Assembly: GCF_000014065.1 (NCBI RefSeq)
Contig: NC_008044.1
Location: forward strand, 2,379,501 to 2,443,500
Reading direction: 5' to 3'
Length of the DNA stretch: 64,000 nucleotides
DNA from: Ruegeria sp. TM1040
GTDB taxonomy: Bacteria > Pseudomonadota > Alphaproteobacteria > Rhodobacterales > Rhodobacteraceae
Part shown: positions 24,047-31,833 of the stretch, one piece after another
How the letters are laid out: the number at the start of each line of letters is the position of its first letter
Numbering within the stretch: the first letter of the stretch is position 1
Program-made: the position numbers and the translations under genes
The notes under the pieces: generated by a model
What the model saw: the letters and a program-made list of their open reading frames with translations, nothing else
The model's database searches: none
What the model was told of the DNA's origin: nothing

Positions 24047-25138
24047 ATGCGGTATCTTCGTTTCCTGTGTTGTGCTTTGGCGTTTTTGACGCTGTCGGGC
24101 TGCAATCTCGTATTGCTGTCCCCCTCCGGCGACATCGCCGCGCAGCAGGGCGACCTCATCGTTTACTCCACAGTCCTCATGCTCATCGTCATCATTCCTG
24201 TGATGGCGCTGACGGTGTTTTTTGCCTTCAAATACCGGGCAGAAAATAAGGACGCCCGGTACGAGCCGGACTGGGATCACTCCGTCAGTCTCGAGATCGT
24301 GGTGTGGTTTGTGCCGCTTGCGATCATCATCTGTCTGGCAGGGCTGACCTGGGTGGCGACCCACCGGCTGGAGCCCTATGACGATCTGCGCCGCGTCTCC
24401 GAGACCAAGCCCATCGACCCCAATGTGGAACCCATGGAGGTTCAGGTGGTGGCGCTCGATTGGAAATGGCTGTTCATCTATCCCGAATACGGCGTGGCAA
24501 CCGTCAACGAGGCTGCAGCCATCGTGGATCGCCCGGTGGAGTGGAAACTCACGTCCTCTACGGTGATGAACGCCTTCTACATCCCGGAAATGGCCGGGAT
24601 GATCTATGCGATGGCCGGGATGGAGACCGAGCTCAACGCGGTGATCAACGAACCCGGCACGTTTGAGGGTTTTTCGGCCAACTACAGCGGCAATGGGTTC
24701 TCTCACATGCGGTTTGATTTCATCGCCGAGGATGAAGCGGGCTTTGAGGCCTGGATCGAAGAGGTCCGTGCAAGCGGCATGACGCTTGATCAGGACTCCT
24801 ATGCGGTGCTCGAACAGCCCAGCGTAGCCCATGAGGTCGAGTATTTCGGCGCGGTCGAAGACGGGCTCTGGGACAAGATCCTCAACATGTGCGCTGGCCC
24901 CAATGCGCTGTGCCTCAACGACATGATGATGGTTGACGCGCTTGGCGGTGGCGGTCTGGCGGGGCTCTACAATCGAGAGCTCTATCGCGGGATTTGCTCG
25001 GCAGACGACCCCGAAGCGCTGCTGGCGATGCTGCGGCCTGACATTCAGGAAGAACAGCAGCGCGAAGACATTCTGCAGGCCATGACCCTGACCTCAGGTG
25101 ACCTGCTTCCCAATTCCAACACAACAGAGGCGAACTGA
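24047..25138 (+). CDS. cyoA: Quinol oxidase subunit II
   Basis: A 363-residue lipoprotein subunit of a bo3/ba3-type ubiquinol oxidase. The signal ends in L-T-L-S-G-C with lipid-modified Cys19; two membrane helices follow (about 40-65 and 85-108). The periplasmic cupredoxin domain has W-K-W-L-F-I-Y-P at about 141 but lacks the Cys pair of a CuA centre, so it takes electrons from quinol and not from cytochrome c. First of a five-gene operon (3-bp gaps, then ATGA overlaps). A long acidic C-terminal region (about 290-363) containing two extra cysteines goes beyond the core domain. Confidence 0.95.
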   Translation: MRYLRFLCCALAFLTLSGCNLVLLSPSGDIAAQQGDLIVYSTVLMLIVIIPVMALTVFFAFKYRAENKDARYEPDWDHSVSLEIVVWFVPLAIIICLAGLTWVATHRLEPYDDLRRVSETKPIDPNVEPMEVQVVALDWKWLFIYPEYGVATVNEAAAIVDRPVEWKLTSSTVMNAFYIPEMAGMIYAMAGMETELNAVINEPGTFEGFSANYSGNGFSHMRFDFIAEDEAGFEAWIEEVRASGMTLDQDSYAVLEQPSVAHEVEYFGAVEDGLWDKILNMCAGPNALCLNDMMMVDALGGGGLAGLYNRELYRGICSADDPEALLAMLRPDIQEEQQREDILQAMTLTSGDLLPNSNTTEAN

Positions 25139-25141
25139 CAC

Positions 25142-27178
25142 ATGGCTACGATTCCTGCTGCAACAGCAGCCGCTCAGTCCAGTGACGCCCTCAACCAGAC
25201 CCATTGGTTCTGGGGCAAGCTCGGCTGGGACATCTTTCCCTTCTACGATCCAATCATCTTTGGCACCTTTATCGGGACCTGTATCCTTGCGGCCGGGGTG
25301 GTCGGCATAGTGCTCTACTACCGCCTTCTGCCCTATCTGTGGAACGAGTGGTTCACCACGGTGGACCACAAGAAAATCGGCATCATGTACATGATCCTTG
25401 CGGTTGTGATGTTGGTGCGTGGCTTTGCCGATGCAGTGCTGATGCGGCTGCATCAGGCGCTGGCCTCGGCGGGATATGTGGGCTTCTTGCCCGCTTATCA
25501 CTACGATCAGGTCTTTACCGCGCATGGCGTGATCATGATCTTCTTCGTGGCGATGCCCTTTATCACCGGCTTCATGAACTATGTGATGCCGCTACAGATC
25601 GGGGCGCGCGACGTGGCCTTTCCGTTCCTCAACAACTTCAGCTTCTGGCTGACGGTGTCGGGTGCGGTGCTGATCATGATCTCGCTCTTTGTGGGGGAGT
25701 TTGCCGCGACCGGCTGGCTGGCCTACGCGCCGCTTTCGGGCCTGAAGTTCAGCCCCGGCGTCGGCATGGACTACTACTTGTGGTCGCTCAACATTGCCGG
25801 GATCGGCACCACGCTCTCGGGCATCAACCTCGTTGTGACCCTCGTCAAGATGCGCGCACCGGGCATGACCTGGATGAAGCTGCCGATTTTCAGCTGGACC
25901 ACGCTCTGTACCAACATCTTGATTGTTGTGACCTTCCCGGTCCTCACCGCGACCCTCGCGCTGCTGACTGCGGATCGCTACCTCGGCACCCATTTCTTTA
26001 CCAATGAGATGGGCGGCAACCCGATGATGTATGTGAACCTGATCTGGATCTGGGGCCACCCGGAGGTCTACATCCTGATCCTGCCGATCTTTGGGATCTT
26101 TTCCGAGATCGTCGCGACCTTCTGCGGCAAACGCCTCTTTGGCTATGCCTCCATGGTCTATGCGACCTGCGTCATCATGGTCCTGAGCTACATCGTCTGG
26201 CTGCACCACTTCTTTACGATGGGGGCTGGTGCGGATGTGAACTCCTTCTTTGGGATCACAACGATGATCATCTCGATCCCCACGGGGGCCAAGCTCTTCA
26301 ACTGGCTCTTCACCATGTACAAGGGGCGTATCCGCTTTGAACTTCCGATGATGTGGACCATCGCCTTTATGCTGACCTTTGTGGTCGGGGGCATGACCGG
26401 CGTGCTTCTGGCGGTGCCGCCTGCGGACTACGTGCTGCATAACTCCTTGTTCCTGATTGCACATTTCCACAATGTGATTATCGGGGGTGTTGTGTTCGGC
26501 ATCTTTGCGGGCATCACCTACTGGTGGCCCAAGGCCTTTGGCTTCCACCTCGATCCTTTCTGGGGCAAGGTCAGCTTCTGGGGCTGGGTCGGCGGGTTCT
26601 GGGTGGCCTTCATGCCGCTCTATCTCCTCGGCCTGATGGGCGTCACCCGTCGTCTGAGCCAGTTTGAAGACACCATCTATGCGGGGTATTTCTTTACCGC
26701 CCTCATCGGCGCGCTGATGATCGCGGTCGGGCTTCTGGCCTTCCTCGTGCAGATCTTCGTGTCGATCCGCAACCGCGAGAAATTGGCGGTGGGCAATGAT
26801 CCTTGGGGCGGGCGCACGCTGGAGTGGTCCACCACCTCGCCGCCGCCCTATTACAACTTTGCCTTCACCCCGCGCGTCTACGAGCGCGACGCCTGGCACC
26901 ATATGAAAACCCATGACGCCAAGGCGCCGACCTCGGGCTTCGTACCGATCCACATGCCGCACTACACGGCAAGCGGGATCATTCTGGCGGGGCTGATGAC
27001 GGTAATGGGCTTTGCACTGGTCTGGCACATCTGGTGGCTCTCGGCGCTGATGTTCCTTGCAAGCCTCGCCTATGGGATCGCCCATACCTTCAACTATAAC
27101 CGCGACTATTACGTGCCCGCCGAAGAGGTCTCTGAAATCGAGACCGGGCAGAGAACAGTCGCCACGCCTGCGGAGTAA
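25142..27178 (+). CDS. cyoB: Quinol oxidase subunit I (haem-copper)
   Basis: A 678-residue catalytic subunit that reduces O2 to water and pumps protons. The low-spin haem ligand lies in [10 protein letters not shown], CuB ligands in W-G-H-P-E-V-Y and L-H-H-F-F-T, and the haem ligands in H-F-H-N-V-I-I-G-G. Fifteen or so hydrophobic helices are expected; an N-terminal extra helix (about 35-60) and C-terminal ones are typical of CyoB compared with CtaD. Sits 3 bp after cyoA and 3 bp before cyoC. Expected in the inner membrane. Confidence 0.96.
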
Positions 27179-29432: not shown

Positions 29433-29852
29433 TTACGCGAGGGCCGCGCGAATTTTCTCGGCGTGGGCGGCAATGGCCTCCATATCGCCCATCTGCCCCG
29501 ACGCGCGCAGCGACACCCCCTCGTGACGCGGCAGCACGTGGAAATGCAGGTGGAACACCTCCTGCCCGCCGGCAGCCTCGTTAAACTGCTGGATCGTCAC
29601 CCCGTCCGCATCAAAGGCCGCCTTGCTGGCCTGCGCCAGTTTCTGAACGCTGCGGATCACCGCCTCAAGCTGCGCGGCGCTGGCATCCAGCACATTGCGG
29701 CAAGGGGTTTTGGGGATCACCAAGAGATGCCCGTCCGCGCGCGGCATGATGTCCATAAACGCAAGCGTGTCGTCATCTTCATAAACCCGCATGGAGGGGA
29801 TCTCTCCGCGCAGGATCTTGGCAAAGATATTGTCGTTGTCATAGGCGGTCAT
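29433..29852 (-). CDS. HIT family nucleotide hydrolase/transferase
   Basis: A 139-residue histidine-triad protein. H-L-H-F-H-V-L-P at about 101-108 is the catalytic triad, and I-F-A-K-I-L-R-G-E-I-P-S near the N-terminus is the usual HinT-like start. Such proteins hydrolyse AMP-lysine or other nucleoside phosphoramidates and dinucleotides. A C-terminal extension of about 30 residues follows the triad, as in the longer alphaproteobacterial members. It lies 82 bp upstream, on the same strand, of the glyoxalase-like gene. Confidence 0.92.
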   Translation of the reverse strand: MTAYDNDNIFAKILRGEIPSMRVYEDDDTLAFMDIMPRADGHLLVIPKTPCRNVLDASAAQLEAVIRSVQKLAQASKAAFDADGVTIQQFNEAAGGQEVFHLHFHVLPRHEGVSLRASGQMGDMEAIAAHAEKIRAALA

Positions 29853-30174
29853 GGCGGGTTCTCTCTCCGTATCAACCGAAAGCGGATCTCAGGATTGGGT
29901 GTCGCAGCCAACGCGCGCGGGGTCAAGCAACCAGCCCCGTCACGTCGCAGGTTCGCGTCGCGCAGAGGACATGGCAAGGCGCCAAAGACGCAATTGGATG
30001 AATATTTCACCGTCATTGAGACCCAAAACTCAAGAGGGCGCGACAATTATTCTTGATCCAGATCAAACTCCGCCATTGAAGGGCCGCGCAGGCCATTCTA
30101 AAACCACCAAGAGTCCAGAGCCGACGGGGAATCCCCCGTGCGGTCTCTGAGGAGTATAAACAGGAGGCACCCAA
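29853..30174 (+). promoter_or_regulatory. 322-bp control region of ctaD
   Basis: No gene is seen here. It holds the FNR-type box listed separately and, 3' to it, a weak sigma-70-like pair TTGAAG (30076-30081) and TAAAAC (30099-30104) with 17-bp spacing, which would start RNA near 30111. An AGGAGG site ends 8 bases before the ctaD ATG. The half nearest the HIT gene shows nothing clear beyond its own ribosome-binding site. Confidence 0.4.
30053..30066. promoter_or_regulatory. Perfect FNR/FnrL box upstream of ctaD
   Basis: TTGATCCAGATCAA is an exact TTGAT-N4-ATCAA palindrome, the FnrL consensus in Rhodobacter. It ends 108 bp before the ctaD start and lies about 50 bp upstream of the guessed transcription start, so FnrL could alter aa3 oxidase expression when oxygen falls. 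No other gene starts on this side. Confidence 0.75.
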
Positions 30175-31833
30175 ATGGCAGACGCAGCCATTCAAGGTCA
30201 CGGCCACGAAGACGAGCGGAGCTTTTTCACCCGCTGGTTTATGAGCACGAACCACAAGGATATCGGTATCCTTTACCTGATCGTTTCGGCGCTCACCGGC
30301 TTCATTTCCGTCGCATTCACCGTCTACATGCGACTCGAACTTATGGATCCCGGTGTGCAGTACATGTGTCTGGAAGGCTTTGCCGCAGACCCCTGTACGC
30401 CGAATGGCCATCTCTGGAACGTGCTGATTACAGGCCACGGCGTCTTGATGATGTTCTTCGTCGTCATCCCGGCCCTGTTCGGCGGGTTTGGCAACTATTT
30501 CATGCCGCTGCAGATCGGCGCGCCGGATATGGCGTTCCCGCGGATGAACAACCTCAGCTTCTGGATGTATGTTGCAGGCACCGCGCTGGCGGTCTCCTCG
30601 GTCTATGCGCCGGGCGGCAACAACCAGCTGGGCGCTGGCGTGGGTTGGGTTCTCTATCCGCCGCTCTCCGTCAAGGAAGGCGGGATCGCGATGGATCTGG
30701 CGATTTTCGCCGTGCACGTCTCCGGTGCCTCCTCGATCCTGGGCGCGATCAACATGATCACCACCTTCCTGAACATGCGTGCCCCCGGCATGACCCTGTT
30801 CAAGGTGCCGCTCTTCAGCTGGTCGATCTTCGTCACCTCCTGGCTGATCCTTCTGTCCCTGCCGGTTCTGGCAGGCGCAATCACCATGCTGCTGATGGAT
30901 CGTAACTTCGGCTTCACCTTCTTTGATGCCGCAGGCGGCGGGGACCCGGTTCTCTACCAGCACATCCTGTGGTTCTTCGGCCACCCCGAAGTGTACATCG
31001 TGATCCTGCCGGGCTTTGGCATCATCTCCCACGTGATCGCGACCTTCTCGCGCAAGCCTGTGTTTGGCTACCTGCCGATGGTCTGGGCGATCATCGCGAT
31101 TGGTGTTCTGGGCTTCGTCGTTTGGGCGCACCACATGTACACCGTCGGCATGAGCCTCAACCAGCAGGCCTACTTCATGCTGGCCACCATGGTGATCGCC
31201 GTGCCCACAGGGGTGAAGGTCTTCTCGTGGATCGCAACCATGTGGGGCGGCTCCATCGAGTTCAAAGCCCCCATGGTCTTTGCTTTCGGCTTCCTGTTCC
31301 TGTTCACCGTTGGCGGTGTGACCGGCGTGGTGCTGTCGCAGGCGGCCGTGGACCGGGCCTATCATGACACCTATTACGTGGTGGCACACTTCCACTACGT
31401 GATGAGCCTTGGTGCGGTGTTTGCGATCTTCTCCGGCATCTACTTCTACTTTGGTAAGATGACCGGCCGTCAGTACTCCGAACTGGGCGCACAGATTCAC
31501 TTCTGGATGTTCTTCATCGGTGCAAACCTGACGTTCTTCCCGCAGCACTTCCTGGGCCGTCAGGGCATGCCGCGTCGCTACATCGACTATCCCGAAGGCT
31601 TTGCATACTGGAACAAGATCTCGTCCTATGGCGCGTTCCTGTCCTTTGCCTCCTTCATCTTCTTCTTCGGTGTGGTGATCTATTCACTGCTGCGTGGCGC
31701 GCGTGTGACCCAGAACAACTACTGGAACGAATACGCCGACACGCTGGAGTGGACCCTGCCCTCTCCGCCGCCGGAGCACACCTTTGAAATCCTGCCCAAG
31801 CAGGAAGACTGGGACAAAAGCCACAGCCACTAA
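30175..31833 (+). CDS. ctaD: Cytochrome c oxidase subunit I (aa3 type)
   Basis: A 552-residue haem-copper subunit I. Ligand motifs: G-H-G-V-L-M-M-F-F (low-spin haem), F-G-H-P-E-V-Y with its Tyr cross-link, W-A-H-H-M-Y-T for CuB, and H-F-H-Y-V-M-S for the two haems. The short loop [14 protein letters not shown] after helix I resembles that of Paracoccus CtaD. It stands alone: coxB/ctaC, ctaE and ctaG genes are not next to it, as is usual in Paracoccus and Rhodobacter. Preceded by an FNR-type box, followed by a terminator and then a DUF2244 gene. Confidence 0.96.

Follow-up and report, generated by a model that had tools for sequence, protein, structure and literature searches.

Control of the aa3-type cytochrome c oxidase gene by FnrL is already known in related bacteria, since repression by this regulator has been published for Rhodobacter sphaeroides and Dinoroseobacter shibae. 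In the portion of the R. sphaeroides study used here (PMC2908626), FnrL ChIP-chip peaks are located at both coxI (RSP1877-6, TTGATctggATCAA) and coxII (RSP1826-9, TTGATtcagATCAA), both of them decreased, and a sigma-70 peak was absent from coxI while FnrL was bound and present at coxII. The same portion describes the low-affinity oxidase as 'apparently' repressed, on the basis of FnrL binding together with transcripts that fall with oxygen, and lists coxI and coxII among the predicted FNR targets, the study giving a 20-ortholog FNR regulon in 27 Rhodobacterales species. For D. shibae, the relevant part of the published account (PMC5398030) has FnrL mediating activation of the cbb3 oxidase and repression of the aa3 oxidase, with ctaCBGE and ctaD repressed anaerobically. 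According to the section on the Paracoccus denitrificans fnrP mutation in PMC6955949, ctaDII mRNA was unchanged and qoxB was raised, and the unaffected ctaDII counts against a universal rule of aa3 repression by FNR-type proteins. For Escherichia coli, the values drawn from PMC3688515 center 19 of the 23 FNR-activated sites with a known transcription start at -41.5 +/- 4, with another at -60.5; the FNR-repressed sites span -125.5 to +1 and include ndh and pdhR (both at -50.5), cydAB (-53.5), and hdeD (-43.5).

The locus compared with these systems lies in the window, the whole 64,000-nt stretch of Ruegeria sp. TM1040 DNA that was analyzed, and comprises the following features:

24047-27178: cyoA and cyoB (NCBIfam), about 3 kb before ctaD
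29433-29852, minus strand: divergent HIT-like gene, best models under their cut-offs, start 200 bp from the box
30038-30045, plus strand: GCGCGACA, conserved upstream element (approximately GYGCGRCA), box offset -15 to -8
30053-30066, plus strand: FnrL box TTGATCCAGATCAA, center 30059.5, predicted position -51.5
30076-30081, plus strand: predicted -35 element TTGAAG, from conserved columns and a leave-one-out matrix
30099-30104, plus strand: predicted -10 element (TAAAAC), separated from the -35 by 17 bp, T absent at -7
30111, plus strand: predicted transcription start, placed from the predicted -10
30175-31833, plus strand: ctaD, aa3-type cytochrome c oxidase subunit I (NCBIfam TIGR02891 CtaD_CoxA)

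The ctaD product scores 666.5 bits against TIGR02891 CtaD_CoxA, slightly below the cut-off of 670.75, and the next model reaches 548.2. The original prediction had placed an exact TTGAT-N4-ATCAA palindrome at 30053-30066, 108 bp from the ctaD ATG (30175) in a 322-bp intergenic region; the letters and coordinates are correct, and both the distance and the length of the gap between ctaD and the divergent ORF are confirmed. The palindrome is the sole exact match in the window. When one mismatch is allowed, the window holds five matches versus 1.43 expected, and at least five occurred in 3 of 100 shuffles, so that the match count by itself is poor support for a non-random box. Across the 4.15-Mb genome there are nine exact sites, versus one for the reversed pattern used as a control; at least four of the nine fall within mechanical ORFs of at least 233 aa, meaning that even an exact match does not by itself establish function. 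The match at 30053-30066 alone is suggestive, not decisive, and the case for a box beyond chance comes from its conservation before ctaD instead of from the window count.

Conservation was surveyed in 139 regions upstream of ctaD, each from a different genome of one family, with the box sought in the final 250 bp. These loci, taken from 288 genomes with a match, are the first 110 listed minus L031 (contig end) plus 30 of 40 further genomes; the sample is biased toward nearer relatives of the source, and its members are related loci, not independent draws. The box is exact in 39 of the 139 regions and present with at most one mismatch in 67, whereas 19 palindromes with permuted half-sites gave no exact match in the same regions and a one-mismatch match in at most two of them. 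Amongst 80 named ctaD loci, whose genomes partly overlap the larger sample, 19 carry an exact box, 12 a box with one mismatch, and 49 a best site with two or more. The same-genus genome G260 has TTTATCCATATCGA before ctaD, with two mismatches despite an FnrL of 86% identity, and the same letters precede ctaD in the named record L163, whose CtaD is 96% identical. Loss of the box in close relatives, which the original prediction had named as the observation that would refute it, is seen in one same-genus genome, G260, and not across the surrounding genera. Four loci (L017, L045, L172, and L175) carry two FnrL-type boxes, one at the promoter position and the other 34 bp upstream.

Alignment of the boxed loci on the first base of the box reveals three shared stretches, approximately GYGCGRCA at -15, CATTG(A/C)NG at +21, and CTA(A/G)AAC at +45. 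A promoter matrix built from the -35 and -10 columns, omitting both the box and whichever row is being tested (leave-one-out), places the promoter at an identical offset from the box in 56 of the 67 boxed loci, 1 bp off in two, and elsewhere in nine; 59 of the 67 contributed to the training (own row omitted each time), and the rows are related. Amongst the 56 fixed-offset loci, the distance from box start to ATG takes 19 different values from 111 to 137 bp, so the spacing between the box and the predicted promoter is constant while the leader length changes. In the window, this alignment predicts a box center of -51.5 relative to the predicted ctaD transcription start. A sigma-70 consensus scan of 29800-30250 returned no plus-strand promoter, for which reason the promoter is inferred from conservation; the scan requires a T at the last -10 position, a base that is absent at -7 in more than 60% of alphaproteobacterial sigma-70 promoters in the data used from PMC8407463. 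The weak promoter originally proposed about 50 bp beyond the box is roughly matched by a conserved -35/-10 pair, 10 and 33 bp past the box, and not by the consensus scan, and the box lies wholly upstream of the predicted -35, as had been suggested.

A second sequence element, TGCGNC, occurs around the box and was counted in the 109 loci with a promoter score of at least 10. At the place of the box (offsets 6-7) it is found in 25 of 48 unboxed loci, in one of three loci with two mismatches, and in 19 of 24 with one mismatch; its absence from all 34 exact-box loci is automatic, since the letters of an exact box exclude TGCGNC there. The commonest boxed form, TTGATCTGCGTCAA (19/58), is a recurrent, imperfect palindrome. 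Of the 58 boxed loci, 33 have a further TGCGNC copy 20 bp upstream, at -14; of the 48 unboxed loci, 11 have an upstream copy at -14 or -15. These patterns could be explained by an older activator element, a TGCGNC direct repeat with copies 20 bp apart, onto which the box was overlaid, with FnrL repressing by displacing the activator. This explanation is tentative: the zero count in exact boxes carries no information, the window retains only the upstream copy (as CGCGAC), the TGCGNC rows come from related genomes, and the box is only presumably the later of the two. It complements repression by FnrL rather than excluding it. RegA/PrrA is an uncertain candidate for the protein binding TGCGNC: the inverted repeat GCGNC-N5-GNCGC is present in only 9 of the 139 ctaD regions, and a published PrrA study did not find a strong consensus and described a degenerate GCG inverted repeat. 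RedB was set aside as the binder, its motif being AT-rich and non-palindromic. A non-exhaustive search of the open-access literature met no description of the fixed box-promoter spacing or of the overlapping TGCGNC element.

The genome encodes an FnrL. The FnrL gene (2688727-2689464 on G000:C3) specifies 246 residues, with the start codon assumed, has Crp-family Pfam matches, and lies near the cbb3 cluster, as judged from genes with COX1 and FixP domains. Its translation contains CADCPIRHRAVCARC, with the cysteines CADC...CARC, and LETVSR, in which the letters ETVSR are taken here to be the recognition helix that confers FNR-type specificity. Another exact FnrL-type box, at 2683902-2683915 of the same contig, comes directly after the FixP-type gene; it sits at the 5' end of an ORF (115 aa) that has no Pfam family. 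FnrL orthologues were sought in all 139 genomes (E <= 1e-20), 61 of which have a box at the promoter position: 59 of the 102 with an FnrL of at least 70% identity, one of the 26 with a more distant FnrL, and one of the 11 in which none was found. The Fisher p of this association, which takes no account of relatedness, is 5e-9. However, 43 of the 102 have a good FnrL and yet no box at this position, and a tree-based test on a 60-row CtaD tree yielded four independent pairs and no significance, so that the association may reflect shared ancestry. In the 26 genomes of the intermediate group the best FnrL match is just 51-69% identical, and the one ctaD box amongst them was noted above; genomes G169 and G234 encode such a distant FnrL-like protein in addition to a closer one.

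Use of the site by another Crp/FNR protein (CrpK-like or Dnr-like), either in place of FnrL or shared with it, is an unlikely alternative. In R. sphaeroides, FnrL shares its coxI site with CrpK, to which a negative sign is also assigned (PMC4263372, from its Table 3), which indicates that a second Crp-type protein can act at this promoter, and the D. shibae account assigns multiple regulators to one Fnr/Dnr site type (PMC5398030, in the part used here). Six Crp-type proteins exceed the Pfam cut-off in the TM1040 genome, three of them with more than 60 bits, and the imperfect symmetry of the recurrent TTGATCTGCGTCAA form would also suit a different binder. Against this, N-terminal FNR-type cysteines occur in only one of the three strong proteins, the one near the cbb3 genes, and the window site TTGATCCAGATCAA is a perfect FnrL palindrome. 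The comparison with R. sphaeroides coxI extends to a Crp/FNR-type protein, the same promoter, a negative sign, and a site shared with FnrL; CrpK is nevertheless distinct from FnrL, and no CrpK was identified in the TM1040 genome.

Boxes were also found at other oxidase genes. In the source genome an exact FnrL box separates ccoN from usp. A box with at most one mismatch is present at each of the 30 ccoN loci studied (from 30 of 36 genomes), that of locus L270 being exact and located at -90. The ccoN box begins 36 bp ahead of a conserved CAT-AA, a possible -10 that would center the box at -41.5; a second conserved stretch, GTCTAAA at offsets 49-55, is an alternative -10 candidate, which leaves the ccoN center of -41.5 uncertain. 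The ctaC gene, about 12 kb outside the window, carries TTGATCTAAGTCAA, and a box with at most one mismatch is present at 14 of 17 ctaC loci, 10 of them exact (sample of 17 of 36 genomes at E <= 1e-80, two of the 17 being partial matches). The GCGNC-N5-GNCGC inverted repeat that is rare at ctaD occurs within 350 bp of ctaC in 14 of 17 loci and is similar to GCG inverted repeats that have been put forward for RegA/PrrA; where an FnrL box is present, the repeat lies a few bases past it. No box precedes cyoA, as had been predicted: at all 10 cyoA loci, including that in the window, the best site within 350 bp has three or more mismatches. Of 69 genomes searched, 33 of them picked for more than one oxidase match, 10 yielded a CyoA; amongst the 36 nearer genomes the number was 3, and a search of same-genus G260 found none; this patchy distribution suggests that cyoA/cyoB form an accessory or transferred operon. 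The proposed contrast, in which the cytochrome c oxidase and not the quinol oxidase answers to FnrL, holds insofar as cyoA is boxless and is weaker than it appears, because cyoA is patchy. The other aa3 unit, ctaC, is boxed too.

From the conservation of the box, the presence of an encoded FnrL, and the published binding in R. sphaeroides, ctaD very probably belongs to the targets of FnrL, in agreement with the original prediction. The sign of this control is most likely repression at low oxygen, by analogy with the relatives. No direction was stated in the original prediction. A box placed ahead of a -35 element would ordinarily be taken for activation; the evidence nonetheless favors repression. 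Microaerobic activation of ctaD by bound FnrL, for which the placement of the box wholly upstream of the predicted -35 would speak, is improbable in view of the negative sign in R. sphaeroides (PMC2908626) and D. shibae (PMC5398030), in the portions cited, and of a predicted position of -51.5 that differs from both positions of activation by E. coli FNR, -41.5 and -60.5 (PMC3688515, values as above). The wide span of the repressed E. coli sites makes -51.5 compatible with repression without proving it. Action of the box on the HIT-like gene, whose start it precedes by 200 bp, is very improbable, as the fixed spacing is toward the ctaD promoter. A chance match, for which the exact genome sites inside ORFs and the degenerate same-genus box would argue, is the least probable of all, given a box in 67 of 139 genomes versus at most two for the permuted controls.

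The best explanation is that the palindrome is an FnrL operator that lowers ctaD transcription at low oxygen (probability roughly 0.82), with both the binding and the negative sign carried over from relatives. Under low oxygen, FnrL would retain its [4Fe-4S] cluster, dimerize, and bind the box at a predicted center of -51.5, roughly a helical turn farther upstream than the -41.5 from which FNR usually activates. From there it would lower transcription of ctaD and with it the low-affinity aa3 oxidase, while the same FnrL would switch on the high-affinity cbb3 oxidase; the route of repression may be exclusion of polymerase, contact with its alpha subunit, or blocking of an activator bound to the overlapped TGCGNC. 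It is conceivable, though doubtful, that spacing sets the sign of FnrL family-wide, with the ctaD box 46 bp before the predicted -10 (-51.5, repression) and the ccoN box 36 bp before the CAT-AA that may be its -10 (-41.5, activation), one helical turn apart, and that the ctaD box overlaid one older TGCGNC copy via the hybrid TTGATCTGCGTCAA, FnrL also displacing an aerobic activator. To what was already known, the analysis adds the fixed box-promoter spacing, the ctaC boxes at 14 of 17 loci, and the boxless cyoA at 10 of 10. The results support the view that one oxygen sensor swaps oxidases in these marine bacteria, turning cbb3 on and aa3 off. Should the constant spacing and the overlapped older element prove real, they would offer a simple test of the mechanism of FNR-type repression, as well as a test of site gain and loss between genera.

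Compared with the described systems, the P. denitrificans FnrP likewise exerts FNR-type control over the oxidase mix and differs in that the quinol oxidase is repressed there (PMC6955949, in the section cited). E. coli ndh, an aerobic respiratory gene, parallels the ctaD reading through its repression by FNR from a site near -50 (PMC3688515, values as above), with the difference that the starts of ndh and pdhR are known and that of ctaD is predicted. The R. sphaeroides coxI and coxII promoters share the gene, the regulator, and the consensus with ctaD; their sites, which are bound by FnrL in vivo, differ from the ctaD box in the center bases (PMC2908626, in the portion cited). The aa3 oxidase of D. 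shibae, as described in the cited part of PMC5398030, is subject to the same FnrL-mediated repression that is proposed here for TM1040 ctaD.
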